Assembly: GCF_000382705.1 (NCBI RefSeq)
Contig: NZ_ARQE01000007.1
Span: 433 to 64,432 of the forward strand
Direction: 5' to 3'
Source: Aureimonas ureilytica DSM 18598 = NBRC 106430
GTDB taxonomy: Bacteria > Pseudomonadota > Alphaproteobacteria > Rhizobiales > Rhizobiaceae
Length of the DNA: 64,000 nucleotides
Part shown: piece after piece, positions 12,353 through 54,305 of the stretch
How positions within the stretch are numbered: position 1 is the first letter of the stretch
How the letters are laid out: each line of letters opens with the position of its first letter
Notes under the pieces: model-generated
Told to the model about the DNA's origin: nothing
Seen by the model: the letters and a program-made list of their open reading frames with translations, nothing else
Databases searched by the model: none
Program-made: the position numbers and the translations under genes

Positions 12353-13696
12353 ATGACGCACACGCGCATCACCCTCGGTCTCATGCTGCACGGAGCGGGC
12401 GGCAACATGAACTCCTGGCGTCATCCGGCCGGTCCGGCGGACGCCAGCGTGAACCTGCCCTTCTATGTCGAGCAGACCCGGCGCGCCGAGGCGGCGGGCT
12501 TTGCCTTCGTCTTCGTGGCCGACGGGCTCTATATCAACGAGAAATCCATCCCGCATTTTCTCAACCGGTTCGAACCGCTCACCATCCTGTCGGCGCTGGC
12601 GACGGCGACGACGCGCATCGGCCTCGCGGGAACGGTCTCGACCTCCTATAGCGACCCGTTCACGGTGGCCCGGCAATTCGCCTCGCTGGACCTCATCTCC
12701 GGCGGGCGCGCGGGCTGGAACGTGGTGACGACGCCGCTCGAAGGGTCGGGCCGCAATTACGGCCGCCCCCATCCCGAGCACGCGCTGCGCTACCAGATCG
12801 CCGACGAATATCTGGAGGTGACGCAGGGGCTCTGGGATTCCTGGGACGACGACGCGTTCAAGCGGGATCGCGAGAGCGGCCGCTTCTTCGATCGCGACAA
12901 GCTGCACCGGCTGGATCACAAGGGTCGCTTCTTCCAGGTCGAGGGGCCGCTGAACATCCAGCGCTCGGCGCAGGGCCAGACGGTCATCTTCCAGGCGGGC
13001 TCCTCCGAGGACGGCGTCAGCCTCGCCGGCAAATATGCCGACGCCGTGTTCACCCATTCGCCCTCGCTGGAGGAAACCCGCGCCTTCCGCGCCCAGGTGC
13101 GCGCCAGCGCCGTAGCGCATGGGCGCGCCTCGGCCGACGTAAAGGTGCTGCCGGGCATTCATCCGATCGTCGGCGCGACGCGCGAGGAGGCGGAGCGCAA
13201 ATACGAGATCATCCGCGATCTCGTCTCGCTGGAGGACGCGCTCGCCTATCTCGGCCGCTTCTTCGACCATCACGATTTCACGCAATACGACCCGGACGCC
13301 GCTTTCCCCGACCTCGGCGATCTCGGCGCCAACAGCTTTCGCTCCACCACGGACCGGATCAAGCGCGATGCCCGCGAAAAGGGGCAGACGCTGCGCGAGG
13401 CCGCTTTGTCTGCCGCGACACCCCGGCCGAATTTCCTCGGCTCGGGAGAGGAGGTCGCCGAGACGATCATCCACTGGATCGAGGCCGGCGCGGCCGATGG
13501 CTTCATCGTCGGCTTCCCGGTGTCGGCGGAGGGGCTCGACGATTTCGATCGCCATGTGATCCCGGTTCTGGAAGCGCGCGGCGTCTATGACCGCGCCCTG
13601 CCGGAAACGACGCTGCGCGGCAATCTCGGCCTGCCCTTCAAGCCGAGCCGTCATGCCGCCGCCGATGCGCCGACGGCGTCGCGGGCCTCGGCATGA
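12353..13696 (+). CDS. cmoJ: NtaA/DmoA-type flavin monooxygenase (CmoJ-like)
   Basis: A 447-residue FMNH2-dependent monooxygenase of the bacterial luciferase-like NtaA/SnaA/DszA/DmoA group. Visible family features are [13 protein letters not shown] near the N terminus, [40 protein letters not shown], and [12 protein letters not shown] followed by NYGR. These are the hallmark blocks of the long monooxygenases that cleave C-S, C-N or sulfonate bonds. The length is close to that of Bacillus CmoJ/YtnJ. It is the first gene of a coupled operon, and the next gene overlaps its stop by ATGA. With the deacylase, acetyltransferases and cystine-type ABC transporter it points to oxidative cleavage of an N-acetylated S-substituted cysteine. 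An external flavin reductase would be needed and is not encoded here. Confidence 0.85.
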
Positions 13697-14892
13697 GCGG
13701 CTCGCGCCCAGGAGGCGAGGCAGCGCGGCGATCGATCGCGCGCCATGCGGGGGAATTCGTGGTGCTGCGCCGCGATCTCCACCAGCATCCCGAACTCGCC
13801 TTTGCCGAGGAACGAACGTCCCGGATCGTCGCCTCGCTTCTGGAAAGCTGGGGCTACGAGGTGACGCGGGGGCTCGGTGGCACGGGCGTCGTCGGCACGC
13901 TGCGCCGGGGCAACGGGCCGCGCGCGCTGGGACTGCGCGCCGACATGGACGCGCTGCCCATCGCCGAGGAAACCGGCCTGCCCCATGCCAGCCGGACGGC
14001 CGGGGCCATGCATGCCTGCGGGCATGACGGGCACACGGCGATCCTTCTCGCCGCCGCGCGCTATCTGGCGGTGGAGGGCGGCTTTTCCGGCACGCTGCAT
14101 CTCATCTTCCAGCCGGCCGAGGAAATCGGCCAGGGCGCGCGCCGGTTGATCGCCGACGGCCTGTTCGACCGCTTCCCCTGCGATGCGGTCTTCGGCCTGC
14201 ACAATTGGCCGGGCGTTTCCGCAGGGCGTTTCGGTTTCGTGGCCGGGCCGGCCATGGCCTCGGTGGACTGGGCGCGCATCCGCGTGGCGGGCCGGGGCGG
14301 GCATGGCGCCGAGCCGCATTCGGCCGTCGATCCCGTGGTGGCGGCCGCCCATATCGTCACCGGCCTCCAGACCATCGTCTCGCGCAACGCCGCGCCGCTG
14401 GATCTCGCCATCGTCACGGTCGGCTCCATCCACGGCGGCTCGGCGGCCAATGTCATTCCCGACAGGGTGGACCTGACGCTGACGACCCGCGCCTTCCGTC
14501 CCGAGATCCGGCAGCTTCTCGAAAAGCGCGTGAAGACGGTGGCGACGCTTCAGGCCGAAAGCTTCGGGGCGCTGGCCGATATCGAATGGAAGGAGGGCTT
14601 TCCGAGCGTCGTGAACCACCGGCGCGAAACCGATCTCGCCCGCAGTGTCGCGCTCGACCTCTTCGGCGAGGCGGGCGTGGAGCCGGACTTCGCCCCGCGC
14701 ACGGCCAGCGAGGATTTCGCCTTCCTGCTGCAGGAGCGGCCGGGCAGCTATTTCTTCGTTGGCAATGGCGACAGCGCCCCGCTCCACAGCCCCCGCTACG
14801 ACTTCAACGACGCCTTGATCGAGCCCGCCGCGACCTATTGGGCGGCGCTGGCCGAAACCTTTCTCGTATCCCCGGAGACCCCGCATGGCTGA
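13693..14892 (+). CDS. M20-family amidohydrolase / N-acyl-amino-acid deacylase (SndA/HipO-like)
   Basis: A 399-residue M20D metallopeptidase-like deacylase. Metal-site segments are in the right order: [46 protein letters not shown] (Cys/His ligands), [15 protein letters not shown] (Glu pair), FGLHNWPG, the dimerisation-lid segment [16 protein letters not shown], and TASEDFAF near the C terminus. Relatives hydrolyse N-acyl amino acids such as hippurate, IAA-amino acids or N-acetylcysteine. It overlaps the monooxygenase gene by four bases and the acetyltransferase gene by eight, so translation is coupled. In this cluster it would release the free amino acid from the N-acetylated product after C-S cleavage. 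Confidence 0.88.
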
Positions 14893-15439
14893 CCGCATCG
14901 TCCAGACCACGCCGCTCGACCCGCGCGCCGCGCCGCTGATCGAGGATCTGATTCGCGAATATGACAGCCGCTACGGCACCTATTTCGACGCGGAAGGCGC
15001 GCGAGCGGAATTGAACCGCTACCCGGCCGAACTCTTCGTTCCGCCCCACGGCAATTTCATCCTCGTGCTGCGCGGGGGCGAGACGATCGCCGGCGGCGCG
15101 TTCAAGCGCTACGACGCCGGGACCGCCGAGGTGAAGCGCATGTGGACGCGGCCCGACCTGCGCCGCCAGGGGCTGGCAGCCCGCGTTCTCGCCGAGCTGG
15201 AACGCCTCGCCGCCGCCCAGGGCTACGGCCGCATCTATCTCACCACCGGCTTCCGCCAGCCAGAAGCCGTGCAGCTCTATCTGTCGCTCGGCTACGGCGC
15301 CCTGTTCGACACGAAGGCCAATCCCGAGACCTATCAGCGCCTGCCGTTCGAGAAGGTTCTTCGGCCGAGCGCTGCCGCCGGTCTTGCCGCTTTGGCGCAA
15401 GCCGCTCCCTCTCGGGACCTCGGAGGGCTTGCCCGATGA
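14885..15439 (+). CDS. GNAT-family N-acetyltransferase (first paralogue)
   Basis: A 184-residue GNAT protein. The acetyl-CoA-binding motif A is visible as KRMWTRPDLRRQGLAARVLAELERLAA, with the Q/RxxGxG/A-like loop RRQGLA, followed by a beta-strand/helix pair ending YLTTGFRQPEAVQLYLSLGYGALF. A second paralogue with the same FRQPEAV..YLSLGY block lies at 20306-20935 in the same cluster. N-acetylation of the imported S-substituted amino acid is the likely role, by analogy with SnaA/YtmI. The 3' end overlaps the transporter gene by ATGA. The final ~20 residues are Ala-rich and not conserved. Confidence 0.85.
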   Translation: MADRIVQTTPLDPRAAPLIEDLIREYDSRYGTYFDAEGARAELNRYPAELFVPPHGNFILVLRGGETIAGGAFKRYDAGTAEVKRMWTRPDLRRQGLAARVLAELERLAAAQGYGRIYLTTGFRQPEAVQLYLSLGYGALFDTKANPETYQRLPFEKVLRPSAAAGLAALAQAAPSRDLGGLAR

Positions 15440-17196
15440 GCCTCTCCGCTTCCTTCGACGCGGCGCTTGGCCGTTCCGCCAAGGGCGGGCGCGCAGAGGC
15501 CCCGACGCGCTTTCGCATCGTGCCCGCGCGCCACCCGCTGCGCGCGGTCGGCACGCTCGCCGCCCTTCTTCTCGTCGCCGCCGTGCTCCAGTCCACGCTC
15601 ACCAATCCGCGCTGGGGTTGGGACGTGTTCGCGCAATGGTTCTTCGCCGAGCCGGTTCTGGTCGGCCTTGGCCGCACGTTTCTTCTCACCCTCATCGGCA
15701 CGCTGTTGGGCTTCGGGCTCGGCACGCTTCTGGCGCTCGCCCGCGTCTCGGGCTCGCCGGCGATCTCGGCCGTCTCCTTCGCCTATGTCTGGGTGTTCCG
15801 CTCGATCCCGCTGATCGTGCTGCTGCTGCTTCTCAACAATCTCGGCTATCTCTACGAGACGCTGCGCCTCGGCGTGCCCTATACCGACATCACCTTCGCC
15901 TCCTGGTCCACGACGCAGCTCATCACGCCCTTCGCGGCGGCGGTGATCGGGCTGACGCTGAATCAGGGCGCCTATTCCGCCGAAGTCATTCGCGGGGGCA
16001 TTCTCTCGGTCGACCAGGGCCAGACGGAGGCCGCCGCCGCCCTCGGCCTGCCGCGCGGGCATCAGGCCCGGCGCATCGTCCTGCCGCAGGCCATGCGCTC
16101 CATCCTGCCGGGGGCGTTCAACCAGATCATCGGTCTGGCGAAGGGCACCTCGCAGGTCTACATCATCGCCCTGCCGGAACTCTTCTACACGGTGCAGGTG
16201 ATCTATCGCCGCAACCTGGAGGTGATCCCGCTCCTGATGGTGGCGACGGTCTGGTACTTCATCATCCTGACCGCGCTGTCGCTCATCCAGCGCGTGGTGG
16301 AGCGGCACTATGCCAAGGGCGCCCTTCGCAACCCGCCGCCTTCGATCCTGAGCCGGCTCTGGCCGACGCGCGCTGGCACCCCCGCTTCCGCCGAGAGCGG
16401 TGCCGTTCCCGCTCGGTGGACGAGCCGAAGCGATGTCGGCGGGGAAATCGAAATCCGCCACGCGCGCAAGAGCTTCGGCGAGGTCGCGGTTCTGAAGGAC
16501 GTGTCGCTTCGCATGGAGCCGGGCAGCGTGACCGTCATTCTCGGCCAATCGGGCTCGGGCAAGTCCACGCTCCTGCGCACGATCAACCATCTGGAGCGGC
16601 TGGACGACGGGATCGTGACGCTGGACGGCTCGCTGATCGGCTACCGCCGCGACGGCGACACGCTTTACGAACTGCCGGAAAAGGAGGTGCTGAAGCGCCG
16701 CGTCGATGTCGGCATGGTGTTTCAGGGCTTCAATCTCTTCCCCCATCTCACCGCGCTCGAAAACGTCATCGAGGCACCGATGGCGGCGCAGGGCCTCCCC
16801 CGCGCCGAGGCCGAGGCCCTCGGCCGCGAGCTTCTGGCCCGTGTCGGGCTCGGTGCCAAGGCCGACGCCTATCCCCGCCAGCTTTCGGGCGGCCAGCAGC
16901 AGCGTGTCGCCATCGCCCGTGCGCTCGCCTTGCGGCCCAAGGTTCTCCTGTTCGACGAGCCGACCTCGGCGCTCGACCCCGAACTCGTCGGCGAAGTGCT
17001 GGCCGTCATCCGCGAACTCGCCCGCTCCGGCACGACGCTCGTGATCGTGACGCACGAGATCGGCTTTGCCCGTGAGGTCGCCGACCGCGTGGTCTTCATG
17101 GATGGCGGCGAAGTGCTCGAAGTCGGCCCGCCGGCTCAGGTCCTCGGCGCGCCCCAGCATCCCCGCACCCGAGACTTCCTCGCCAAGGTGCTGTGA
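15436..17196 (+). CDS. Amino-acid ABC transporter permease fused to its ATPase
   Basis: A 586-residue fusion protein. Residues ~30-290 are a HisM/TcyL-type permease with about five helices and the EAA loop ([29 protein letters not shown]). Residues ~335-586 form the ATPase, with Walker [10 protein letters not shown] (~residue 371), signature LSGGQQQR, Walker [14 protein letters not shown] and the switch His in VTHEIG. These domains are separate proteins in most polar amino-acid importers, although fused versions are known in Rhizobiales. Only one permease type is present, so a homodimer would form the channel. ATG 15436 overlaps the preceding TGA. Two binding-protein genes follow. Confidence 0.92.
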
Positions 17197-17282
17197 ACGC
17201 CCGGTGGCGGCCGGGGGGCCTACCGCCCCGCCGCCAACTCCCGCCCTTTCCCCTCCCACCGCTCAACCCAAGGAGACACGCT

Positions 17283-18221
17283 GTGCCTTCATTGCTTCCG
17301 CGCGCCCTTTCGGCGCTCGTTCTCGCCGCCTCGCTCGGGCTCGCCACCGCCGCCTTGGCTCAGCCCGTGGCGGTCGATCTCGACCCCGCGCAGCCGGGCC
17401 GCATCCGGGCCGAGCCCGTTCCCGCCGCGATCGCGCTCCTGCCGAAAGACCTCAAGCTCGTCACCCCGGGCACGCTCTCCGTCGCGACCAGCCCCGGCCA
17501 GTTGCCCTTCTCGGTCTATGCCAGCGACACCAAGACGCCCGTCGGCGGCGAGCCCGATCTGGCGCAGCTCGTCGCCGACAGTCTGGGCCTCAAGCTCGCC
17601 ATCGAGGGCGTCGCCTGGGCCGACTGGCCGCTCGGCCTCACCTCCGGCAAATACGACGCCGTGATCAGCAACGTGACGGTGACGGAAGCGCGCAAGGAGA
17701 AGTTCGACTTCTCGACCTATCGCAACGACCTTCTCGGCTTCTACGTGCCGCTGGACAGCAAGATCCAGAAAATCGAGAAGCCCGAGGATGTCGCCGGGCT
17801 GAAGGTCGCCGTGTCGTCCGGCACGAACCAGGAACAGATCCTTCTCGGCTGGGTCAAGGCCAACGAAGCGAAGGGCCTGAAGCCGACCGAAGTGGTCTAT
17901 TTCGATGACGATGCCGTGCGCCAGCTCGCGCTTCAGTCGGGCCGGATCGACGCCTATCTTGGGCCGAACTCCACCTCCGCCTATCTGTCGGCGCGCGACG
18001 GCAAGACCCGGCTCGTGGGCAACTTCTCCGGCGGCTGGCCCGAGACGGCCGAAATCGCCGTCGCCACCCGGAAGGGCGCAGGTCTGGCGGAGGCGATCAC
18101 CGCCGCGATCAATGCGCAGATCGAGAACGGCAACTACGCCAAGGTCCTGGCGCGCTGGAACCTGTCGTCCGAAGCGATCGAACACTCGCGCACCAACCCT
18201 GCCGGCTTGCCGAAGAGCTGA
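17283..18221 (+). CDS. Polar amino-acid ABC transporter substrate-binding protein, copy 1 (TcyJ/K-like)
   Basis: A 312-residue family 3 solute-binding protein starting at GTG 17283; AAGGAGA at 17270-17276 supports this start. The signal peptide ends near ATAALAQ. Ligand-site landmarks are EPDLAQLVADSLGLKL, SGKYDAVISNVTVTEARKEKFDFS and SSGTNQEQ. It is a tandem paralogue of the next gene, sharing WADWPLGL, SGKYDAVISNV and RKEKFDFSTYR. Two binding proteins for one permease is also the TcyJ/TcyK arrangement of the Bacillus cystine/S-compound importer. It probably captures an S-substituted cysteine or cystine-like ligand in the periplasm. Confidence 0.88.
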   Translation: MPSLLPRALSALVLAASLGLATAALAQPVAVDLDPAQPGRIRAEPVPAAIALLPKDLKLVTPGTLSVATSPGQLPFSVYASDTKTPVGGEPDLAQLVADSLGLKLAIEGVAWADWPLGLTSGKYDAVISNVTVTEARKEKFDFSTYRNDLLGFYVPLDSKIQKIEKPEDVAGLKVAVSSGTNQEQILLGWVKANEAKGLKPTEVVYFDDDAVRQLALQSGRIDAYLGPNSTSAYLSARDGKTRLVGNFSGGWPETAEIAVATRKGAGLAEAITAAINAQIENGNYAKVLARWNLSSEAIEHSRTNPAGLPKS

Positions 18222-18231
18222 GCCCGCGCCC

Positions 18232-18257
18232 CCGCGCCGGTTTTCGCGCCGGCGCGG
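18232..18257 (+). other. Intercistronic GC-rich stem-loop between the two binding-protein genes
   Basis: A perfect 9-bp stem, CCGCGCCGG (18232-18240) and CCGGCGCGG (18249-18257), with an 8-base loop. There is no T-run, so it is more likely an mRNA-stabilising or attenuating element than a full terminator. Confidence 0.6.
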
Positions 18258-18292
18258 CCTTCCACTCGGTCTCAAACTGGAGCTTCCCCTCG

Positions 18293-19228
18293 ATGTCTCT
18301 TGCAAGCCTTGCACGCCGCGCCGCCGGCGGGTTCTTTCTCGCCGCGCTGCTGGCCGCCCCGGCTTGGGCGGTCGAGGGTTTCGACCTCTCGCCCGAGCAG
18401 GCGGGGCGCGTCCATGCCGAGCCCGTTCCTGCCGCGATCGCGGCCCTGCCCAAGGACGCGCGCTTCGTGAACCCCGGTCATTTAACCGTCGCGATCACGC
18501 CCGGCGGACCGCCGCTCGGCACCTATGCGACGGATGCGGCCACCGTCGTCGGCGCCGACCCCGACTATGCCTCGCTCGTTGCCGAGGCGCTCGGGCTCCA
18601 GCTCGATCTCGTGCCTGTCGCCTGGGCCGACTGGCCGCTGGGTCTGGCGTCGGGCAAATACGACGCCGTGATCTCGAATGTCGGCGTCACCGAACAGCGC
18701 AAGGAGAAGTTCGACTTCTCCACCTATCGCAAGGGGCTGCACGGCTTCTTCGTCAAGAAAGGCTCCGGCATCGGCCCGATCGCCGAGCCCAAGGACGCGG
18801 CGGGCCTTCGCATCATCGTGGGCGCCGGCACGAACCAGGAGCGCATTCTTCTCGAATGGAGCCGGCTCGACGTCGAGGCCGGGCTGAAGCCGATCGAGCT
18901 GCAATATTACGACGACGAGGCGGCCGGTCTCCTGGCGCTCCAGACGGGGCGCGCCGACGTGGTGGTCCGCCCCAACGCCCAGCTCGTGTTCATCGCCGCA
19001 CGGGACGGCAATATCGAGCGCGCGGGGACGCTCAGCGCCGGCTGGCCCCTGAAATCCGACGTCGCCATCGCGACCCGCAAGGGATCGGGACTGGCGCAAG
19101 CGCTGACGATCGCCACCAACGCCCTGATGGATCAGGGGCTCTTCCAAAAATCGCTTGAACGCTGGCAGCTCACCGAGGAAGCCCTGCCGCGCTCGCAGAC
19201 CAACCCGCCCGGACTGCCGAAATATTGA
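18293..19228 (+). CDS. Polar amino-acid ABC transporter substrate-binding protein, copy 2
   Basis: A 311-residue family 3 solute-binding protein with a signal peptide ending near AAPAWA. It aligns end to end with the preceding binding protein, at roughly half identical residues by eye. Shared segments are AEPVPAAIA.LPKD, WADWPLGL.SGKYDAVISNV.VTE, RKEKFDFSTYRK and GTNQE. The ligand-pocket region around KKGSGIGPIAEP and the DEAAGLLALQTGRADVV block differs, so the two copies may have different ligands or affinities. It closes the transporter part of the operon; the luciferase-like gene starts 80 bases downstream. Confidence 0.88.
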   Translation: MSLASLARRAAGGFFLAALLAAPAWAVEGFDLSPEQAGRVHAEPVPAAIAALPKDARFVNPGHLTVAITPGGPPLGTYATDAATVVGADPDYASLVAEALGLQLDLVPVAWADWPLGLASGKYDAVISNVGVTEQRKEKFDFSTYRKGLHGFFVKKGSGIGPIAEPKDAAGLRIIVGAGTNQERILLEWSRLDVEAGLKPIELQYYDDEAAGLLALQTGRADVVVRPNAQLVFIAARDGNIERAGTLSAGWPLKSDVAIATRKGSGLAQALTIATNALMDQGLFQKSLERWQLTEEALPRSQTNPPGLPKY

Positions 19229-19308
19229 CCTGGGCGCGCAGGCACGCCCCGCGCGCTTCGCCCCCACTTTTCGATCGACCCGATGCTCCCGCTTGCGAGG
19301 CCCCTTGC

Positions 19309-20295
19309 ATGACCTATCGTCTCAGCCTTCTCGACAAGAGCCCCGTCGCCACCTCTCCGGCCGAAGCATTGGCGACGAGCCTTGCCTATGCAAGCCTTGC
19401 CGACCGGCTCAGCTATCACCGCTTCTGGGTCGCCGAGCATCATGGCACGGATGCCCTGGCGAGCGCCGCGCCGGAGATTCTCGCCACGCATCTTCTGGCC
19501 CGCACGAAGCGCATTCGCGTCGGCACGGGCGGCGTTCTGCTCCAGCATTACAGCCCCTACAAGGTGGCCGAGCTCTTCGGCGTCCTCTCGACGCTCGCGC
19601 CCGGCCGGGTGGATCTGGGCATCGGCAAGGCGCCGGGCGGGTTGCCGTTCGGCACGCGCGCGCTGCAAAGCGAGCTCGCCGCGCCGCGCCGGCCCTTCGA
19701 GGCCAAGCTGCGCGATCTCGACCTGTTCCTGCGCGGCCCCGCGCCGGAGGGGCACCCCCTGGCCGGCGCCGAGGCGCTGCCGCGCGCCGCCGTTGCGCCC
19801 GAGCGCTTTCTTCTGGGTGCGAGCGAAGCGAGCGCCGCGCTGGCGGCGGAACTCGGCTGGGGCTTCGTCCATGCCGGCCATCACGACGGCGACGCGCCGG
19901 CGACCGAGCGCAGCCTCGCGCGTGCCCGGCAGGGCGGCCCGGAGCCGATCCTCGCCGTTGCGGCCTTTGCCGCACCGACGCGCGAGGAGGCGCGCGCCGC
20001 CGCAGCCCAGCGCATCTTCAAGCTGCATCTCTCCGACGGTCACGCCGTCAATCTCGGCAGTCTCGACGCCGTCGAGGCCTATGCGCGTCAGTATGGCGCC
20101 AAGCCCGTCAAGGTCGAGGAACGTCGTCCCCATGTCCTCGCCGGCACGCCGGACGACGTTCATGCCGAGCTCGCCGATCTCGCGCGCCGTCATGGCATCC
20201 GTGAATTCATTCTGGACTGCCCGGTGGCCGACCCCGTTCAGCGGCTGCGCTCGATCGAGCTGATCGCGGCGGCATCCCTGCGCGCAGCGGCGTGA
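19309..20295 (+). CDS. cmoO: Luciferase-like flavin monooxygenase, MsnO8/CmoO type
   Basis: A 328-residue LLM-class flavin-dependent oxidoreductase. ATG 19309 begins MTYRLSLLDKSPV, the typical N terminus of the MsnO8/YtmO group. Further landmarks are YHRFWVAEHHGTDALASAAPEI, RIRVGTGGVLLQHYSPYKVAELFG and LAPGRVDLGIGKAPGG. In Bacillus the YtmO/CmoO protein belongs to the same operon as CmoJ and the TcyJKLMN importer. A reduced-flavin cofactor and an S-substituted or sulfoxide-type substrate are inferred from that synteny and not from the sequence. It sits between the binding-protein genes and the second acetyltransferase gene on the same strand. Confidence 0.85.
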   Translation: MTYRLSLLDKSPVATSPAEALATSLAYASLADRLSYHRFWVAEHHGTDALASAAPEILATHLLARTKRIRVGTGGVLLQHYSPYKVAELFGVLSTLAPGRVDLGIGKAPGGLPFGTRALQSELAAPRRPFEAKLRDLDLFLRGPAPEGHPLAGAEALPRAAVAPERFLLGASEASAALAAELGWGFVHAGHHDGDAPATERSLARARQGGPEPILAVAAFAAPTREEARAAAAQRIFKLHLSDGHAVNLGSLDAVEAYARQYGAKPVKVEERRPHVLAGTPDDVHAELADLARRHGIREFILDCPVADPVQRLRSIELIAAASLRAAA

Positions 20296-20305
20296 GACGA
20301 GCGCC

Positions 20306-20935
20306 ATGAGCGATCGCCTTCTGGCTTCCAGCCCGCTCGCCCCGGAGGCGCGGCCCGTTCTCGACGGGCTCGTGGCCGAGTCTATCCTTCGCTATGGTTC
20401 GCAGGGGCGCGCCGATCCGAGGGCGGAGGTCGATCGTTACCCGCCGGAGGCCTTCGCGCCGCCCCTTGGCGCATTTCTCCTGCTGCGGCACGGCGAATGG
20501 ACGATCGGCGGCGGCGCGTTCATGAGCCATGATGACGAAACCGTGGAGCTGAAGCGCATCTGGACCCATCCCGACCTGCGCCGGCAGGGTCTGGCGCGGC
20601 GCATCGTTCTGGCGCTGGAAGCGGAGGCGGGCGCGCTCGGCTACACCCGCGCCTTCCTGACGACGGGGTTCCGCCAGCCGGAAGCCGTCTCGCTCTATCT
20701 CTCGCTCGGCTATCGCCCGCTCTTCGATCAGGCGGTGGACCCCGCCCTTTACCGGGTTCTACCCTTCGAGAAGCGGATCGGCGCGCGCGCGGGCGAGCCC
20801 GGCCGCTCCAGCCCGCGCCAGCCCAGCGCCACGCCGGACGCGGCCGTGATCGAAGCCTCCCGCATCAAAGCCGAGCAGGAGCGGGTCATTCTCGCGCGCC
20901 TCGCCCGCTTCCCCCTTCCGCTGGCCGCCGAATAA
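20306..20935 (+). CDS. GNAT-family N-acetyltransferase (second paralogue)
   Basis: A 209-residue GNAT protein paralogous to the one at 14885-15439. It shares ELKRIWTHPDLRRQGLARRIV (acetyl-CoA loop RRQGLA), FLTTGFRQPEAVSLYLSLGYRPLFD and a closing LPFEK. It adds a ~45-residue polar C-terminal tail rich in Arg, Ala and Glu that the first copy lacks. Two acetyltransferases in one cluster parallel the two Sna enzymes described in Bacillus for S-alkylcysteine handling and may acetylate different S-substituted substrates. It follows the luciferase-like gene by ten bases and precedes the third luciferase-like gene by seventeen. Confidence 0.85.
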   Translation: MSDRLLASSPLAPEARPVLDGLVAESILRYGSQGRADPRAEVDRYPPEAFAPPLGAFLLLRHGEWTIGGGAFMSHDDETVELKRIWTHPDLRRQGLARRIVLALEAEAGALGYTRAFLTTGFRQPEAVSLYLSLGYRPLFDQAVDPALYRVLPFEKRIGARAGEPGRSSPRQPSATPDAAVIEASRIKAEQERVILARLARFPLPLAAE

Positions 20936-20952
20936 TCTCGGAACGCCCCTTC

Positions 20953-21963
20953 ATGCCCCTGTCCCATATCGAGCATGTCGCCTTTCTCGTCCCCGGCAAT
21001 TACGAGGACGAGGACCCGCGGCGCGGCCTGGACGACACGCTCGGCCTTTTCGCGCTTGGCGAGACCTTGGGTTACGCCAGCGCCTGGGTGCGCCAGCGCC
21101 ATCTGGAGCGCGGCGTCTCCTCCGCCGCCACGTTTCTGGCCGCCGCCACGCAACGCACGACGCGCATTGGCCTCGGGACGGCCGTCATTCAGCTCGGCTA
21201 CGAGAACCCGTTTCGTCTGGCCGAAGACCTGTCGACCGTCGATGTCCTGTCGGGCGGGCGGCTCCAGGTCGGCGTGTCCGTCGGCCCGCCCCCCTTCGCG
21301 TCCCTGATCTCGGGTTATGTCGATCCGGCGGAGGGCGCGGATTACGGCCACGGGCGGGCCGAGCGGCTGGCCCGCGCCCTCTCCGGCGAACCCCTGTCTC
21401 GGGAGCCTCTCAGCGGCAACGCGGCCGGCGCGCAACTGCCGCGCCTTCGACCGCACGCCCCGGGCCTGACCGAGCGCCTCTGGTATGGCGGCGGCTCGCA
21501 GGCCTCCGCCGCCTGGGCGGGGGCTGCGGGCTTCCATCTTCTGACCGGCAACATCGTCAGCGGCGAGGGCACGGATGATTTCGCCATCGCGCAGATGGCC
21601 CTGGTCGACCGCTTCCGCCGCGAATGGTCACGGGGACGCCTGCCTCGGGTCGCGCTCGGACGGGTCATCCTGCCGACCGACGGCGCCTCGCCCGCGACGC
21701 GTCGGCGTTTCCAAGCCTTCGCCGCCTCGCGCCAAGAGCGCACGCTGACGCCCCAGGGAAGTCGCCGCACGTTGTTCCGCCCCGACATCGTCGGCTCCTG
21801 CGAGGCCATCCTGGACGAACTCGCGCGCGACCCCGTTCTGCCCTTCGTCTCGGAACTGCGTCTCGAACTCCCCTACGAGTTCGATGTCGAGGACTATGCC
21901 CAGATCCTTGCGGATTTCGCTGGGCTGTTCACCCCAGACAAGATCCGGTCGCGACCGGCCTGA
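20953..21963 (+). CDS. Third luciferase-like flavin-dependent oxidoreductase
   Basis: A 336-residue LLM-class protein, distinct from the two others in the cluster. Landmarks are GETLGYASAWVRQRHLERGVSSAATFLAAATQRTTRIGLGTAV, NPFRLAEDLSTVDVLSGGRLQVGVSVG and a C-terminal YAQILADFAGLF segment. The DVLSGGRLQ.GV motif is the flavin/phosphate region of the fold. It is the last gene of the rightward operon. No counterpart is obvious in the Bacillus cluster, so it may handle a substrate class particular to this lineage. Specific reaction unknown. Confidence 0.82.
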   Translation: MPLSHIEHVAFLVPGNYEDEDPRRGLDDTLGLFALGETLGYASAWVRQRHLERGVSSAATFLAAATQRTTRIGLGTAVIQLGYENPFRLAEDLSTVDVLSGGRLQVGVSVGPPPFASLISGYVDPAEGADYGHGRAERLARALSGEPLSREPLSGNAAGAQLPRLRPHAPGLTERLWYGGGSQASAAWAGAAGFHLLTGNIVSGEGTDDFAIAQMALVDRFRREWSRGRLPRVALGRVILPTDGASPATRRRFQAFAASRQERTLTPQGSRRTLFRPDIVGSCEAILDELARDPVLPFVSELRLELPYEFDVEDYAQILADFAGLFTPDKIRSRPA

Positions 21964-34132: not shown

Positions 34133-36277
34133 TTAGAAGCGGTAGCGCAGGGAACCAATGACCTGGCGTCCTTCGGTGTAATAGCCGAAGCCGCCCGCGA
34201 AGACCGGGTCGCGCTTGTCGAAGACGTTGCGGACGTTGATCTGCGCCTCGGCCCCTTCCAGCTGTGCGTTCAGGCGCCGGAAGTCGTAGGAGGCCTTGGC
34301 ATCCACCAGGAACCGGTCGTCGTTGCGGAACGTGTTGGTGTCGTCGCCGTAGCTTTCACCGTCATAGCGCAGGCCGAGCCCCACACCCAGCCCTTCGGCC
34401 GGACCCTCGGCGAACGTGTAGGCGCCCCAGAGCGACACGCTGTGCTCGGGGATGCCGGAGGGCACCTTGCCCTGGTTGTCGCCCTGCGTGATCTCGAGGT
34501 CGAGATAGGTGTAGGCGAGCGTCAAGTCGATGCCGAGCGGAAGGCTCGTCGCGGCCTCGAGCTCGACGCCTTGCGAGCGAACCTCGCCGCGCTGAATCTG
34601 GAAGTTCTGGTTGACGGGGTCGGCGGCCAGGACGTTGGTCTGGACGATATGGAACACGGCCGCGCCGGCAGTCAGGTTCAGGTCGCTCGGCCGGTACTTC
34701 AAGCCCGCCTCGACCTGCTCGCCCTCGCTCGGTTCGAAGGACGCGCCCTCGAAGCTGCGCCCGATGGTCGGCGCGAACGAGGTCGAGTAGCTGAGGTAGG
34801 GCGACAAGCCGTTGTCGAAGAGGTAGCCCAGCCCGACGCGTCCGGAGAATTGGCTGTCGCGCTGTTCGGCATCGGTTCCAAGGCCGTTATTGGCCCGGTC
34901 CTGCGTGTCGAGCCAGTCGTGGCGTCCTCCGAGCGTCAGGACGAAGCGGTTCCACTCGACCTGGTCCTGGACATAGAGGCCGACCTGATCCTGGCGCGTC
35001 GTGACGTCGTAGAAATTGTAGCTCGGCCGTCCGATGAACTGCTGACCGTAGTTGAAGGTGACGAGGCTGAGGTCGGGAGCGGTCCCGAAGCCGATCTTGT
35101 GGCGCACGTCGACCGCGGTGTAGTCGAGCCCCGTCAGGAGCGTGTGCTCCAGCGCGCCCGTTGCGAACTTCGCCTCGGCCTGGTTGTCGATCGCGAAGGA
35201 GTCGAGCTTGTCGTTCACGACGACCGCCGAGCGGGACGCGCTCAGGCGATCGGGCCGGATGAAGCCGATCGTGGTGTAGGGCGAATCGGTGTAGATATGG
35301 GCGTAGCGCACGTTCTGGCGCAGGGTCCAGGTCTCGTTGAACTCGTGCGAGAGTTCGTAGCCTGCGCGTCCCTGATCCTGCAGGAAGGTGCCAAGCGCAG
35401 GATCGCCCGACTCGATGCCGGTAAAGCGGCCGTTCTCGTTGTAGATGCCCGGGTTGCCGCCGACCTCGTAATGCGAATACTCGCCCAGAAGCGTGAAGGA
35501 CGTCGCAAGGTCCTCGGAGCGGAATGTCAGCGCGGGCGCGATGTAGATCCGGTCGTCGGGGACCGAGCGAAGGTCGGTGTCGGCGCTGCGCGCCAAGCCC
35601 GTCAGGCGATAGAGGACGTTGTCGTTCCCGTTCACCGGGCCCGACACGTCGAACTGGGCCTGGTAGCGGTTGTTGTTGCCGATCTGGGTCTGGACCTCGT
35701 GGAAGGGCTGATCCGTCGGTCGCTTGGTGACGAGGTTGACGATGCCGCCGGGCGAGCCGCCTCCGTAGAGCACCGAGCTCGGCCCTTTCAGCACGCTGAT
35801 CGCCTCCAGGCCGTAGGGCTCGGTCTTGAACAGGGAGAAGACGCCGTTCAACTCGCGCAGCCCGTCCCGGTAAACGCCCGTATAGGTGACGTCGAAGCCG
35901 CGGATGTAGAAGGCGTCGAACCGGTTGTCCAAGCCGAACGCGTCGACGCGAACGCCGGGCGTGTAGGTGAGCGCCTCCTTGAGCGTCTGGACGCGGCGGT
36001 CGTCGAGCTGCTGGCGCGTGACGACGTTGACGGTCTGGGGGACCTTGGCGAGCGGGGTGTCGGTCTTGGTTCCGACGCGGGCCGAGGTTGCGACATAGCC
36101 ATCCTGCTGGACGCCTCCCCCCACGCCCACGCTCGGATTGCCGCCGACACCGTCCACGACCACCGTATCGAGCGTCACCGCGTCCTGGGCAGTGGCCGGC
36201 ACGGCCGCGCAGATCGCAACGAGGGATACGCTGAACATTCCGAGGCGAAGGAGGGACAGATCGGAGTGCGAAGACAT
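34133..36277 (-). CDS. TonB-dependent siderophore receptor
   Basis: A 714-residue outer-membrane receptor of the ferrichrome/FhuA-like siderophore class. It has a signal peptide ending near AVPATAQ, a TonB-box-like DTVVV just after, and a plug domain (~55-165) with PLAKVPQTVNVVTRQQLDDRRVQTLKEALTYTPGVRVDAFG and GGGSPGGIVNLVTKRP. A 22-strand barrel ends in the aromatic YRF. A RirA-type box overlaps its likely promoter, so iron repression is expected. The divergent neighbour is a siderophore-esterase-like hydrolase, which fits uptake of a ferric siderophore with ester bonds. No cognate ABC genes are adjacent. Confidence 0.93.
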   Translation of the reverse strand: MSSHSDLSLLRLGMFSVSLVAICAAVPATAQDAVTLDTVVVDGVGGNPSVGVGGGVQQDGYVATSARVGTKTDTPLAKVPQTVNVVTRQQLDDRRVQTLKEALTYTPGVRVDAFGLDNRFDAFYIRGFDVTYTGVYRDGLRELNGVFSLFKTEPYGLEAISVLKGPSSVLYGGGSPGGIVNLVTKRPTDQPFHEVQTQIGNNNRYQAQFDVSGPVNGNDNVLYRLTGLARSADTDLRSVPDDRIYIAPALTFRSEDLATSFTLLGEYSHYEVGGNPGIYNENGRFTGIESGDPALGTFLQDQGRAGYELSHEFNETWTLRQNVRYAHIYTDSPYTTIGFIRPDRLSASRSAVVVNDKLDSFAIDNQAEAKFATGALEHTLLTGLDYTAVDVRHKIGFGTAPDLSLVTFNYGQQFIGRPSYNFYDVTTRQDQVGLYVQDQVEWNRFVLTLGGRHDWLDTQDRANNGLGTDAEQRDSQFSGRVGLGYLFDNGLSPYLSYSTSFAPTIGRSFEGASFEPSEGEQVEAGLKYRPSDLNLTAGAAVFHIVQTNVLAADPVNQNFQIQRGEVRSQGVELEAATSLPLGIDLTLAYTYLDLEITQGDNQGKVPSGIPEHSVSLWGAYTFAEGPAEGLGVGLGLRYDGESYGDDTNTFRNDDRFLVDAKASYDFRRLNAQLEGAEAQINVRNVFDKRDPVFAGGFGYYTEGRQVIGSLRYRF

Positions 36278-39754: not shown

Positions 39755-40483
39755 CTATTGTTTGAGAACGCGTCGAAGGAAGTCGCGCGTGCGTTCATGC
39801 CGCGGCTCGGTGAGAACCTCCTCGGCGGGTCCTTCCTCGACGATGAGGCCGCCGTCCATGAAGAGCACGCGGTCGCCGACCTCGCGGGCAAAGGCCATCT
39901 CATGCGTGACGACCAGCATGGTCATGCCCTCGTCGGCCAGTTCGCGCATCGCGCCGAGCACTTCTCCGACCAGTTCGGGATCGAGCGCGGAGGTCGGCTC
40001 GTCGAAGAGGATCGCCTTGGGCCGCATGGCGAGTGCCCGCGCGATGGCGACGCGCTGCTGCTGACCACCGGACAAGGCGGCCGGAAGATTGTTCGCCTTG
40101 GACGACAGGCCCATCTTCGCGAGGAGCTCGCGCCCATGCTCCTCGGCCTGAGCGCGTGGTTCGCCCTTCACGTGGATCGGGCCCTCCACGACGTTTTCGA
40201 GCGCGGTGCGATGGGGAAACAGGTTGAAACGCTGAAACACCATCGTGACGGACTGGCGCATGTCGCGGATCGAGGCGTCCCTGCGGTCCACCTTGGCGTC
40301 ATCGATCGTGATGAGACCATCCTCGTAGCTTTCCAGCCCGTTGATGCAGCGGAGAAGCGTGGACTTCCCGGAGCCGGACGCGCCGATCAGGCAGACGACC
40401 TCGCCCTTCCGCACCTCGCAGTCGATACCCTTGAGGACCTCCAGCTTTTCGAACCGCTTGTGGACGTTCTGAAGTCGGATCAT
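39755..40483 (-). CDS. Polar amino-acid ABC transporter ATPase
   Basis: A 242-residue ATPase of the GlnQ/HisP class. Walker A is GASGSGKST, the Q-loop is [10 protein letters not shown], the signature is LSGGQQQR, Walker B is [13 protein letters not shown], and the switch is VTHEM. It ends with the usual [15 protein letters not shown] 40483 overlaps the permease stop by ATGA. It works with the single permease and binding protein encoded upstream. Confidence 0.94.
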
Positions 40484-41133
40484 TGCGGGCTGTACCTCCG
40501 TTCCAGATAGGACGCGAGAACGATCAGCGGGATCGAGAGTGCGAGGTAGAGCAGGGCGACGAGCGTGTAGACGGTCATGTTGTCGAAGGTGGACGCAGCC
40601 ACGAGCTTGCCCTGCATGGTGAGTTCGGCCACCGTGATGACGGATGCCTGCGAAGTATCCTTCAGCAGCATGATCATGGTGTTGCCGTAGGGCGGGAGGA
40701 CCGTTCGGATGGCCTGAGGCAGGATGACCCGCCGCATCATCAGGGACCATTTCATCCCGATCGACTGGGCCGCCTCGATCTGCCCCTTGTCGATGGCTTC
40801 GAGGCCTGCCCGGAAGTTCTCGGCCATGTAGCAGGAATAGGCGATGCCCAGGCCGATCGCGCCGGCCTGGAATGCGCTCAGTTCGATACCGAACTCCGGT
40901 AGAACGAAGTAGATGTAGAAGAGCTGGACCAGGATGGGGATGCCGCGCACGGTGTTGACGACCGTCTTCGACACGAACACCAGCGGCCCGATGCCAGAAT
41001 AGCGCATCAGTGCCCAGACCAAGCCGAGGACAGTCGAAACCACGAGCGCCGCGATTGTCAGCGAAACGGTGATCACGACACCCTGGAACAGGATAGGCAG
41101 GTACTGTCCTGCGGAGTGGATGGCTTGCATCAT
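40480..41133 (-). CDS. Polar amino-acid ABC transporter permease
   Basis: A 217-residue HisM/GlnP-type permease with about five helices. The EAA loop reads [29 protein letters not shown], and [19 protein letters not shown] is a second landmark. Only one permease is encoded, so a homodimer is expected. It lies 27 bases downstream of the binding-protein gene and overlaps the ATPase gene by four bases. Confidence 0.94.
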
Positions 41134-41160
41134 GCGATTGGCCCCCCGGTTCCTGCGCCC

Positions 41161-41904
41161 TTACTGGATGCCCCATTTGGCGGCGAGCGTGTCGACGGTG
41201 CCGTTCGCCTTGAGCTTGGCGAGGGCCGAATTCAGCCGGCCCAGCAATTCGGTCTCGCCCTTGCGCACGCCGAGAGCGACCGAGCCGACATACTGGCTCT
41301 CGTAGTCGGCGAGCTGGATGTTCGGGTAGCGACCCTGCGAAAGCTGGTAGGCCATGATCGGACGGTCGCCCATCCCGGCCTTGATGCGTCCGCGGTTCAC
41401 TTCGGCGAGGATGTCGGCAAGGGAGTCGTAGACGCGCACCTCACCGAACTTGCCGGAGGCTCGCAGGTTCTCGAGGTAGACGGTCCCCTGCTGGACCCCG
41501 ATGACCTCGCCGGCGAGTTCATCGAAGGAGGCGGACAGGGTTTGGCTTCCCCCCTTGGCCACGACGATCCCCTCGCCATACGGCAGGACAGGGTCGGAAA
41601 AGTCGATGACCTGCTTGCGGGCCTCCGTCGCCAGCATCGCGGCCGAGATGATGTCGATGCGGTTCGAGGTGAGGGCCGGGATCAGGGAGCCGAAATCCAC
41701 CGGCTGGACCTGCGGTTCGAAGCCCGCCTCCTCGCCCACCGCCTTGACGAGATCGACCATCATGCCCTGGATCTGGTTCGATCCGACGTCGAGGAAGGTG
41801 AAGGGCACGCCGGTCGGCGTGGACCCGACCTTCAAGGGCTCGGCAGCCACGGGCGCGGCGAGCGTGACGAGAAGCGTGGCGGCGAGCAATGTCTTCCTGA
41901 TCAT
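41161..41904 (-). CDS. Polar amino-acid ABC transporter substrate-binding protein
   Basis: A 247-residue family 3 binding protein with a signal peptide ending near APVAA. Core segments are [60 protein letters not shown] and [12 protein letters not shown]. Its ATG overlaps the end of the iclR-type gene (ATGA), so the importer is made in fixed ratio with the regulator. The downstream amine oxidase suggests an amino acid or polyamine-conjugate ligand. Confidence 0.92.
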
Positions 41905-52549: not shown

Positions 52550-53077
52550 CTACCCTTTCGTCGAGCCGATCGTTGGCGGAAAGCCTTCGCTATCGACGTA
52601 GGTCCTCAGGAAGTCCGCGAAGCTGTCCGCCAGAACGCCCCATTCGGCGGGACCGACTTCATGCCAGGCATCCAGCACCGGCTCGATGCCGTTCGGTCCG
52701 CGAGGGCCGAAGACAAGGACTTCCTGCCCGTCGGTATGACAGAACGGAATGTAGGGCCATTCCTCGAGGTCGGGGTCGATGTCCTTCTCCCGCAGAAAGG
52801 CGTCCTGGTATTCCCTGACGAGATCGGCGCATCCACGAAGATGATGGCTGTTCCAACATCCGTCCGCGAACGCCCTTTCGTCGGCCTCGTCCACCGGATC
52901 AGGAGAGATGAACCCGCCGTCGTGGAGCCGTAGAAACATCCTGTAGGCTTCCGGTAGCGAGAGCCCCATCACAGCTTCGGCGTCGGCGATCTCTTTCGCG
53001 CTTGCAGGGGGTTGAAAGAAGGCCCGGCCTTGAAGGCGGACGATCAGACGGCTGAGTTCCGCCAGCAGTTCGACCAT
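52550..53077 (-). CDS. SMI1/KNR4 (SUKH) family protein, orphan immunity-like
   Basis: A 175-residue protein with one SUKH domain over about residues 20-165: PPASAKEIADAEAVMGLSLPEAYRMFLRLHDGGFI, then EWPYIPFCHTDGQEVLVFG and WGVLADSFADFLRTYV. In bacteria many such proteins are immunity factors for polymorphic or contact-dependent toxins, though some are isolated. No toxin gene is adjacent; the neighbour is a decayed serine recombinase. The start is ATG 53077, with TTG 53083 as an alternative. Function as an antitoxin is possible but unsupported here. Confidence 0.82.
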   Translation of the reverse strand: MVELLAELSRLIVRLQGRAFFQPPASAKEIADAEAVMGLSLPEAYRMFLRLHDGGFISPDPVDEADERAFADGCWNSHHLRGCADLVREYQDAFLREKDIDPDLEEWPYIPFCHTDGQEVLVFGPRGPNGIEPVLDAWHEVGPAEWGVLADSFADFLRTYVDSEGFPPTIGSTKG

Positions 53078-53174
53078 GTTCAACGCCTTCTCGATGCGAC
53101 ACGTCCGAGCTTCGCTGCGGGACGTCAGCTTCGATCGAGTGAATGCCCGAAAGGAGAACGGAAGAAAACCACCC

Positions 53175-53558
53175 CTAGCTCACGGTCTCGCCTCGTTTGG
53201 AGACGCCATCGCGCGCCCGCTGGATCGTCAGGCGGCTGACCGCGAACTCGCGGGACAGTGCAGGGACGGAAGCCCCCTCCCCGATCCGTTCGACCACTAT
53301 GCGCTTCTGCTCGGGTGTCAGCTTTGCCGGACGTCCCAGCACCTTGCCCTGCTCCCTGGCCCGGACCAGCCCGGCTTAGGTGCGCTCGATCAGAAGGTCT
53401 CGCTCGAACTCGGCCACCGCATTGATGACGCTCATCGTCATGCGGCTCGTGGAACTCGTCAGGTCGACGCCGCCCGAAGCCAGTTAGTGAACCTTCACGC
53501 CCATGCCGGCCAGGCGTTCACGACGAGAAGCGAAACGGCACAAGCGATCCACCTTGAC
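53175..53558 (-). pseudogene. Decayed serine recombinase (Pin/resolvase family)
   Basis: Minus-strand translation gives VKVDRLCRFASRRERLAGMG, then VKVH, a stop codon, [35 protein letters not shown], a second stop, AGLVRAREQGKVLGRPAKLT, and a C-terminal helix-turn-helix SVPALSREFAVSRLTIQRARDG ending in TAG 53175-53177. This is the familiar order of a Pin/Hin-type invertase from the middle of the catalytic domain to its DNA-binding end. The N-terminal part with the catalytic Ser is gone and two in-frame stops interrupt the rest. Confidence 0.85.
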
Positions 53559-53577
53559 ACGCGAAGCTCCAACCAAG

Positions 53578-53595
53578 CATGTAACGTGTTACATG
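53578..53595. promoter_or_regulatory. Palindromic operator upstream of GntR gene
   Basis: CATGTAAC (53578-53585) and GTTACATG (53588-53595) are perfect inverted repeats with a two-base spacer. They end 20 bases before the ATG of a GntR gene that heads its own operon, fitting autoregulation. Confidence 0.65.
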
Positions 53596-53615
53596 TTAGA
53601 AGTGGAGATGTGGGC

Positions 53616-54305
53616 ATGCCCGGCCGAAACACGCTGCGGATCGTGCAGCCGCCGTCGCTCGCGGCGATGGTGGCGGATCGCCTGCGCGACGCGATCGTCG
53701 ACGGGGAGTTCGCCTTGGGTGAGAACATCTCCGAAGAACGGCTCTGTGCGGCGTTCGGTGTCAGTCGGTCGCCCGTCCGCGATGCCTTGAACGCATTGCA
53801 GTTCACAGGGCTCGTCGAGGTGCGCCCGAAGCGCGGCAGCTTCGTCTTCAACCCGACGGAAACGGATGTCGCGATGCTATGCGATTACCGGTTCATGCTG
53901 GAGCGCGAGGCCGCGCTGATGGCGGTGCGCGTGGCGCGGGACGACGTGGCGGCCGGGCTCGAGGCGGCGGTGCGTCAGATGTCGCAAGCGCACACGGGCG
54001 GCGACCGTCGCGCCTATGGTCACGCGGACACGGCTTATCACGGCGTCTTTTTCGCCTGCTGCGGCAACTCCCTCGTCCGCGATGCCTATCGGCTGGCTGA
54101 GGCGAAGCTCGCGACGCTGCGTACGCTTCTCACAGCGCCCTTCGACGAACGGCGCGAGTCTGGCCTGATCCAGCATCAGGAGATGGCCGAAAGGCTGCTC
54201 GACGGCGACGAGGCTGGCTTCGTCGCCAAGCTCAAGATGCATGCCGACTGGAGCGACAGACTGCCAGCCACGCTATCGCCACAGCAGGAGGGACCCGGTT
54301 TATGA
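53616..54305 (+). CDS. GntR-family regulator (FCD type), first gene of TRAP operon
   Basis: A 229-residue regulator starting at ATG 53616, with GGAG eight bases upstream. The winged helix (~12-75) is SLAAMVADRLRDAIVDGEFALGENISEERLCAAFGVSRSPVRDALNALQFTGLVEVRPKRGSFV. The FCD domain (~85-215) includes CDYRFMLEREAALMAVRVA and GHADTAYHGVFFACCGNSLVRDAY with the usual Asp/His metal ligands. Its end overlaps the next gene by four bases. It probably senses the hydroxy acid or sugar acid taken up by the operon's TRAP transporter. Confidence 0.88.
   Translation: MPGRNTLRIVQPPSLAAMVADRLRDAIVDGEFALGENISEERLCAAFGVSRSPVRDALNALQFTGLVEVRPKRGSFVFNPTETDVAMLCDYRFMLEREAALMAVRVARDDVAAGLEAAVRQMSQAHTGGDRRAYGHADTAYHGVFFACCGNSLVRDAYRLAEAKLATLRTLLTAPFDERRESGLIQHQEMAERLLDGDEAGFVAKLKMHADWSDRLPATLSPQQEGPGL

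Follow-up and report, generated by a model that had tools for sequence, protein, structure and literature searches.

S-alkylcysteines occur in plants, and the chemistry of their salvage was worked out in Bacillus subtilis. These compounds also arise from detoxified electrophiles, and in the published scheme, as given in the passages available, the S-alkylcysteine is acetylated, CmoO makes the sulfoxide, CmoJ yields a sulfenic acid and an aldehyde, and reduction and deacetylation follow (PMC10863075). The gene order of the B. subtilis ytmI/cmo operon was taken from part of a further source (PMC11487621), and an excerpt of another reports that common bean seeds store gamma-glutamyl-S-methylcysteine (PMC3606967). 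The breakdown of S-(2-succino)cysteine is assigned, in the portions seen of two papers, to a separate B. subtilis operon, scm/yxe (PMC9706529, PMC12757645). Here we describe a cluster of nine genes in a stretch of 64,000 nucleotides from Aureimonas ureilytica DSM 18598 = NBRC 106430 (contig NZ_ARQE01000007.1, positions 433 to 64,432; hereafter the window, to which all coordinates refer). Judged from sequence, the cluster is likely to be a proteobacterial-type S-alkylcysteine salvage operon, a variant of the Bacillus scheme that was probably acquired horizontally.

The gene cluster and its CmoJ-type enzyme

Profile searches of the window products confirm nine genes at 12353-21963, all on the plus strand:

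12353-13696, plus strand: luciferase-like monooxygenase 1 (LLM1), a predicted CmoJ-type C-S monooxygenase dependent on flavin mononucleotide (FMN); TIGR03860, NtaA/DmoA family, 500 bits against a cutoff of 280
13693-14892, plus strand: M20 amidohydrolase, predicted N-acetylcysteine deacetylase; TIGR01891, 341 bits
14885-15439, plus strand: GNAT1, predicted N-acetyltransferase for S-substituted cysteine; PF00583
15436-17196, plus strand: permease-ATPase fusion of an ATP-binding cassette (ABC) importer of polar amino acid type; BPD_transp_1 and ABC_tran
17283-18221, plus strand: solute-binding protein 1 (SBP1), family 3; PF00497, GTG start assumed
18293-19228, plus strand: SBP2, family 3 solute-binding protein and paralogue of SBP1; PF00497
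19309-20295, plus strand: LLM2, MsnO8-family, CmoO-like monooxygenase, predicted S-oxygenase; TIGR03558, 303 bits against a cutoff of 167
20306-20935, plus strand: GNAT2, second acetyltransferase, adjoining LLM3; PF00583
20953-21963, plus strand: LLM3, third luciferase-like monooxygenase, with a WVRQRH motif; PF00296

These coordinates and profile matches bear out the nine gene identities and the single strand of the original prediction, which went too far in calling the starts and stops mostly overlapping: overlaps occur at three of the eight junctions (4, 8 and 4 nt), and at the remainder the genes stand 86, 71, 80, 10 and 17 nt apart. With three junctions overlapping and no gap outside 10-86 nt, a single transcript is plausible. 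One promoter-like site (shuffle mean 0.5) and 11 terminator-like sites (shuffle mean 5.3) were counted, and both counts were set aside. The genome holds eight Bac_luciferase matches, LLM1, LLM2 and LLM3 included.

By its sequence, LLM1 is a member of the CmoJ clade of C-S monooxygenases. Its closest relatives in the PDB are 3sdo (604 bits) and B. subtilis YtnJ, which we take to be CmoJ (524 bits; 55.8% identity over 423 residues), and the next chain scores 267 bits. As Bacillota reference we used a cmo-type operon of Listeria, consisting of ssuE and genes for a GNAT, an SBP, two permeases, an ATPase, an LLM, a glutaredoxin-family protein and a further LLM; the names CmoO, CmoI and CmoJ were assigned to its products here through gene order and through the 77% identity of the last LLM to YtnJ. 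With the Listeria CmoJ-type enzyme as query, LLM1 is the best match in the genome at 500 bits, the next place scoring 54 bits; the reverse search with LLM1 was made against the Listeria operon genes only. A quick tree of 114 rows, rooted at its midpoint, with 34 forks left open and with matches under 28% identity or 85% coverage removed, places LLM1, YtnJ and the Listeria enzyme within one clade of 78 rows (98 in the Shimodaira-Hasegawa-like approximate likelihood ratio test, SH-aLRT). Outside this clade falls the monooxygenase of a Niallia cluster that contains a 2SL-type Lyase_1 gene; this enzyme, 43.9% identical to LLM1, is a stand-in for ScmK rather than a sequence so named, and its branch is long. 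CmoJ-clade enzymes were also seen on plasmids of Pantoea (L132) and Ewingella (L139), where they are accompanied by a GNAT and by another kind of importer, encoded by several genes and carrying no annotation beyond ABC transporter; L139 additionally holds an MsnO8-family gene.

The partners of LLM1

LLM2 is CmoO-like by sequence, an assignment weaker than the CmoJ placement of LLM1 because it is based on a one-way best match and pairwise identities rather than on a tree. In that search, the Listeria CmoO-type enzyme found LLM2 as the best match of the genome (207 bits), followed by a gene on contig 1 (139 bits). LLM2 is 38-43% identical to the CmoO-like enzymes of three Bacillota, and the residues EHH are present in 60 of 63 LLM2 homologues. 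The closest PDB relative of the M20 enzyme is YxeP (260 bits); YxeP (ScmP), YhaA and YtnL are described as N-acetylcysteine deacetylases in the excerpts available of PMC12757645.

The remaining parts are more distant from their Bacillota equivalents. GNAT1 and GNAT2 share 55% identity, and their matches to GNATs from the cmo regions of Listeria and Niallia reach 26-28% identity over 57-79 residues with at most 27 bits. SBP1 and SBP2 share 54-56% identity, with 23-26% to the Listeria SBP. With identities this low, the GNATs and SBPs count as analogues of the Bacillota proteins and not as demonstrable orthologues. The ATPase half of the fusion is 50% identical to the Listeria ATPase, and its best NCBIfam model is TcyN (cystine; 306 bits, below the cutoff of 406), with ectoine EhuA at 296 bits. 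For SBP1 the lysine/arginine/ornithine model scores 92 bits and the cystine model 84 bits, both below cutoff, and for SBP2 the cystine model is best, again below cutoff. Elsewhere the window encodes another permease-ATPase fusion of this importer class (39755-41176, minus strand), which scores 347 bits with the TcyN model, short of the cutoff, and has a weak SBP match as its neighbour (41167-41835).

By its analogy with the ytmI/cmo operon, the original prediction implied a CmoJ-type LLM1, a CmoO-like LLM2, an M20 enzyme akin to N-acetylcysteine deacetylases and a polar amino acid importer, and these assignments agree with the matches above, the importer being represented by the permease-ATPase fusion and two family 3 SBPs. 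It also implied Bacillus counterparts for the GNATs and SBPs, which holds for family, but orthology was not detectable. Its statement that homologues of CmoI and RibR are lacking stands for the window: the genome yielded a single flavokinase match, on contig 4, and thus none of RibR type within the window. No RibR is annotated in the Listeria operon either. Queries for SsuE-type, MsuE, flavin reductase, DsbA-domain and cysteine synthase proteins gave no match in the window at 1e-4, and the five FMN_red genes of the genome lie on contigs 1-4, none of them in the window.

Conservation of the gene set

To describe the distribution we used the best 80 of 577 confirmed LLM3 matches in named genomes; the query alignment held six sequences, four of them taken from clusters. 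For a locus to count as a cluster we applied identity thresholds of 55% for LLM1, 45% for LLM2, 48/55% for GNAT, 60% for ABC, 50% for SBP and 55% for M20, together with strand. LLM2, LLM1, GNAT, ABC and SBP genes were found on the strand of LLM3 in the flanks of 60 of these 80 loci, which is a rate among close relatives because the 80 are the best of 577. Most hosts of these 60 canonical loci belong to the Rhizobiaceae, to other alphaproteobacteria or to the Burkholderiales, and one is a Stenotrophomonas, so that the cluster, called alphaproteobacterial in the original prediction, extends beyond that class. M20 is present in 40 of the 60. The usual order is LLM2, LLM1, (M20), GNAT, ABC, SBP, SBP, LLM3, with variation in the Burkholderia and Paraburkholderia loci; the last recognised gene before LLM3 is an SBP gene in 57 loci, ABC in two and MsuE-like in one, at a median distance of 32.5 nt from the start of the LLM3 match (range -4 to 258). 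The window differs from this order in that LLM2 and GNAT2 sit between SBP2 and LLM3. Other proteobacteria have most of these genes together as well, with protein identities of roughly 49-78%, which indicates that the arrangement is more than chance. LLM1 was not found in 20 of the 80 loci, actinobacteria, Pantoea and Agrobacterium included, and two of these loci (L070, L084) keep part of the set.

Starting from LLM1 instead, we took 14 plasmid loci, chosen for spread, from the 30 best-listed of 1267 records and sought LLM3 within their 10-12 kb flanks. LLM3 is present in ten of the 14, intact in seven (L043, L175, L180, L181, L182, L183 and L184) and broken or partial in three rhizobial ones (L044, L177 and L178); it was not found within those flanks in the other four (L045, L046, L176 and L179). 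Taken with the 60 of 80 cluster loci, this makes LLM3 a common but dispensable member. In L044, L177 and L178 the rest of the cluster is still matched over 85-100% of gene length, which gives the impression that LLM3 is the first to decay.

Genes of sulfur metabolism accompany some of these clusters, which speaks for the salvage reading. Within about 4 kb, cysteine synthase is annotated on plasmids of Haematobacter (L039), Terrarubrum (L043), Methylobacterium (L046) and Roseomonas (L180), an ssuE/msuE FMN reductase in R. johnstonii (L042) and Comamonas (L175), and cystathionine beta-lyase in Ensifer (L184). A gamma-glutamylcyclotransferase relative flanks seven of the 80 loci, all in close Rhizobium relatives of one another. 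A DsbA-domain protein follows LLM3 in 15 of the 80, all rhizobial; we guess that it might replace CmoI, and the R. johnstonii sequence has no CxxC.

Proposed pathway and alternatives

From the observed gene identities, CmoJ-clade placement, CmoO-type best match and conservation of the gene set we infer all of the reaction steps that follow, and their substrate. The importer would take up an S-substituted cysteine, which one of the GNATs would N-acetylate. LLM2 would convert the thioether to the sulfoxide, and LLM1 would split the C-S bond to give N-acetylcysteine sulfenic acid and an aldehyde. Reduction of the sulfenic acid would fall to a thiol system encoded outside the cluster, and the M20 enzyme would strip the acetyl group to leave cysteine, with FMNH2 supplied by a reductase from elsewhere in the genome. 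LLM3 and GNAT2 form an accessory module that may, as a guess, widen the substrate range to another S-substituent or sulfoxide isomer.

Several observations weigh against this reading. No CmoI-like redoxin was found in the window (tblastn with the Listeria glutaredoxin-family query, E 1e-4), and LLM3 has no place in the Bacillus scheme. The identity of LLM2 to CmoO-like enzymes is modest, and the top PDB chain of LLM1, 3sdo, bears the label nitrilotriacetate monooxygenase. With the DoeB2 deacetylase model the M20 enzyme reaches 323 bits, short of the cutoff of 550, and 20 of the 60 canonical loci gave no M20 match. The GNATs and SBPs are, at the level of sequence comparison, without detectable orthology to those of Bacillota; SBP1 prefers the lysine/arginine/ornithine over the cystine model, and the ATPase does nearly as well with EhuA. 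Sulfur genes are a minority in the 80 loci, where single-query tblastn found cysteine synthase in three, MsuE-like genes in 11 and flavin reductase-like genes in four.

Three other explanations were considered. It is unlikely, in our view, that the real substrates are already N-acetylated S-conjugates (mercapturates), imported and cleaved directly while the GNATs act on something else. The missing orthology of both GNATs would suit such a route, as would the action of CmoJ on N-acetylated sulfoxides stated in passages of PMC10863075, yet a GNAT is present in all 60 of the 60 LLM1-bearing loci among the best 80 of 577 LLM3 matches, which fits intracellular acetylation, and the transporter is of polar amino acid type.

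More improbable still is a role in S-(2-succino)cysteine breakdown on the model of the scm/yxe operon, in which LLM1 would be the monooxygenase for N-acetyl-S-(2-succino)cysteine (2SNAC). GNAT, monooxygenase, M20 and amino acid importer do form a shared logic, YxeP itself is the best PDB match of the M20 enzyme, and LLM1 is 44% identical to the monooxygenase of the Niallia cluster bearing the 2SL-type Lyase_1 gene. LLM1 nevertheless lies in the YtnJ/CmoJ clade, outside the Niallia branch (a surrogate for ScmK, on a long branch of a quick tree), Lyase_1 is among none of the nine products, and the CmoO-like partner is no part of the scm scheme as published in the available text of PMC12757645. 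We set S-(2-succino)cysteine aside as main substrate on the tree position of LLM1. An analogous pathway for S-substituted cysteines, as proposed originally, is well supported in gene content and at the family level but not in its S-(2-succino)cysteine part or in GNAT and SBP orthology; the proposal had made ytmI/cmo the degrader of that compound, a role given to scm/yxe in the portions seen of the literature (PMC9706529, PMC12757645).

The least credible explanation takes the NtaA label at face value and has the cluster desulfurise or oxidise another substrate (nitrilotriacetate or EDTA, an alkyl sulfone, dimethyl sulfide): it has on its side the NCBIfam name of LLM1, NtaA/DmoA family, and the label of 3sdo, whose basis we have not seen, and against it the PDB scores of LLM1 with DszA (247 bits), EDTA monooxygenase (207) and dimethyl-sulfide monooxygenase (199) versus YtnJ (524), as well as a sulfonate-type transporter among none of the nine genes. 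On these scores nitrilotriacetate/EDTA degradation was set aside, although 3sdo at 604 bits ranks above YtnJ. We retain S-alkylcysteine salvage as the likely role of the cluster.

The third monooxygenase

LLM3 had been left without an assigned substrate, a point that stands. Its best NCBIfam model is TIGR04027 (LLM_KPN_01858), with 103 bits against a cutoff of 413. The structural model has a luciferase fold (predicted local distance difference test, pLDDT, 90.8; predicted template modelling score, pTM, 0.89), and the nearest solved structures are 8k74 (25% identity) and then MsnO8 (22%). In a tree from which matches below 30% identity or 75% coverage were dropped, the relatives of LLM3 form their own clade of 87 rows (support 100/99), which leaves out the more distant relatives (30-38% identity) that congeners have. 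On this tree the label "in the cluster" requires five changes, versus a shuffled mean of 19.8 with none of 500 shuffles as low, indicating that the link to the cluster is strong, yet that LLM3 has moved between contexts. The motif W[VI]R[QH]RH is present in 77 of the 80 LLM3 sequences (best 80 of 577), and the pattern gave nothing in the other three. In the alignment to a luciferase structure it stands opposite "LEHH", so that an arginine occupies the position of the first histidine of that luciferase, a residue that is catalytic in luciferase.

The window LLM3 groups with six Agrobacterium/Rhizobiales copies (99/84) whose flanks are without a detected CmoJ-clade enzyme, and in two of the six, A. 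vitis L040 and L054, a GNAT2-like gene stands directly before LLM3. The window cluster hence looks composite, made of a canonical salvage cluster and a GNAT2-LLM3 module. We tentatively raise the possibility, to which we give somewhat less than even weight, that LLM3 performs a step absent from the Bacillus pathway, for instance by oxidising the aldehyde released by CmoJ or by attacking S-substituted cysteines or sulfoxide isomers beyond CmoO and CmoJ. If this is true, the common proteobacterial cluster would be a three-monooxygenase pathway with chemistry not yet described.

Horizontal gain and neighbouring genes

Among 60 relatives, no match above 45% identity was found for LLM1 (E 1e-60) and none above 38% for LLM3 (E 1e-20), which makes horizontal gain likely. 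Widely separated organisms (Bosea, Stenotrophomonas, Paraburkholderia and Haematobacter), by contrast, carry copies of LLM1 at 71-77% identity, and a copy of LLM3 in Rhizobium rhizogenes reaches 76%. A class-wide search with LLM1 at E 1e-150 gave three of 385 genomes, its own among the three, which informed on distribution but yielded few clusters. Next to the cluster lie an M32 carboxypeptidase gene and three Opp genes, whose counterparts in two congeners show 82-92% identity; the stretches of 18 and 10 kb compared there matched no cluster gene, bar ABC ATPase cross-matches. M32 was found in three of 20 relatives, two of them examined, and the neighbouring block is therefore patchy too, which speaks against a simple reading of horizontal gain. 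Base composition was set aside as evidence of transfer, as GC content is alike inside and outside (67-70% in 2 kb windows of the cluster, 64-72% in the flanks).

Just upstream and divergent from the cluster lies part of a methionine synthase gene (PRK09121; 11451-12218, minus strand) in which positions 1-167 of the model are missing, probably a truncated relic; a second place in the genome (C7:92683-93276) matches it at 83% identity over the matched stretch. Farther away, the window holds a TonB-dependent siderophore receptor (34133-36277, minus strand; TIGR01783 over cutoff, with the ferrioxamine B and FhuA models best but below cutoff) and, at 53076-55171 on the plus strand, a protein that weakly resembles PhnR-like regulators and, after it, an enzyme of PrpB/PEP-mutase type, neither of which reaches its model cutoff.

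Comparison with known systems

We found no description of this proteobacterial cluster or of LLM3 in the literature, as far as titles and the openings of abstracts go, subscription papers being mostly uncovered. TIGR04027 and the Klebsiella structure 8k74 are the best model and the nearest structure for LLM3, yet the model score is far below cutoff and LLM3 has its own clade. The 8k74 enzyme reportedly acts on poly(acrylic acid) with NADPH, and the passages available make no tie to sulfur (PMC11354265).

The B. subtilis scm (yxe) operon shares with the cluster, as read here, the logic of acetylation, breakdown and deacetylation, and the M20 enzyme of the cluster is related to YxeP/ScmP; the cluster differs in that LLM1 is outside the branch of the 2SL-cluster monooxygenase, in having no 2SL among its nine genes and in two further LLMs. 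On the Niallia taxi megaplasmid (L147) a 2SL-type lyase and an NtaA-family monooxygenase occur together, with GNAT, SBP and M20; if that monooxygenase is YxeK-like, the combination is one reported as rare for yxe loci in the portion seen of PMC9706529.

The ytmI/cmo operon of B. subtilis shares with the cluster CmoJ-clade and CmoO-like monooxygenases and, at the level of family, a GNAT, an M20 enzyme and an amino acid importer with two binding proteins. The cluster is without CmoI and RibR, has no YtnM-type product among its nine, has permease and ATPase fused and GNATs and SBPs without detectable orthology, and adds a second GNAT and LLM3. Among the rhizobial plasmid clusters, that of Rhizobium johnstonii 3841 on pRL10 (RL_RS28510-28550) has LLM2, LLM1, M20, GNAT, permease-ATPase, SBP, SBP and LLM3 on one strand; it differs from the window in gene order, in having one GNAT and in a DsbA-domain protein and MsuE downstream. 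In the canonical proteobacterial relatives LLM2 precedes LLM1, whereas in the window it follows the SBPs. A conserved and apparently mobile version of the cluster, often with the third monooxygenase along, extends across rhizobia, Burkholderiales and others, and it offers a set of candidate enzymes and a testable growth phenotype.

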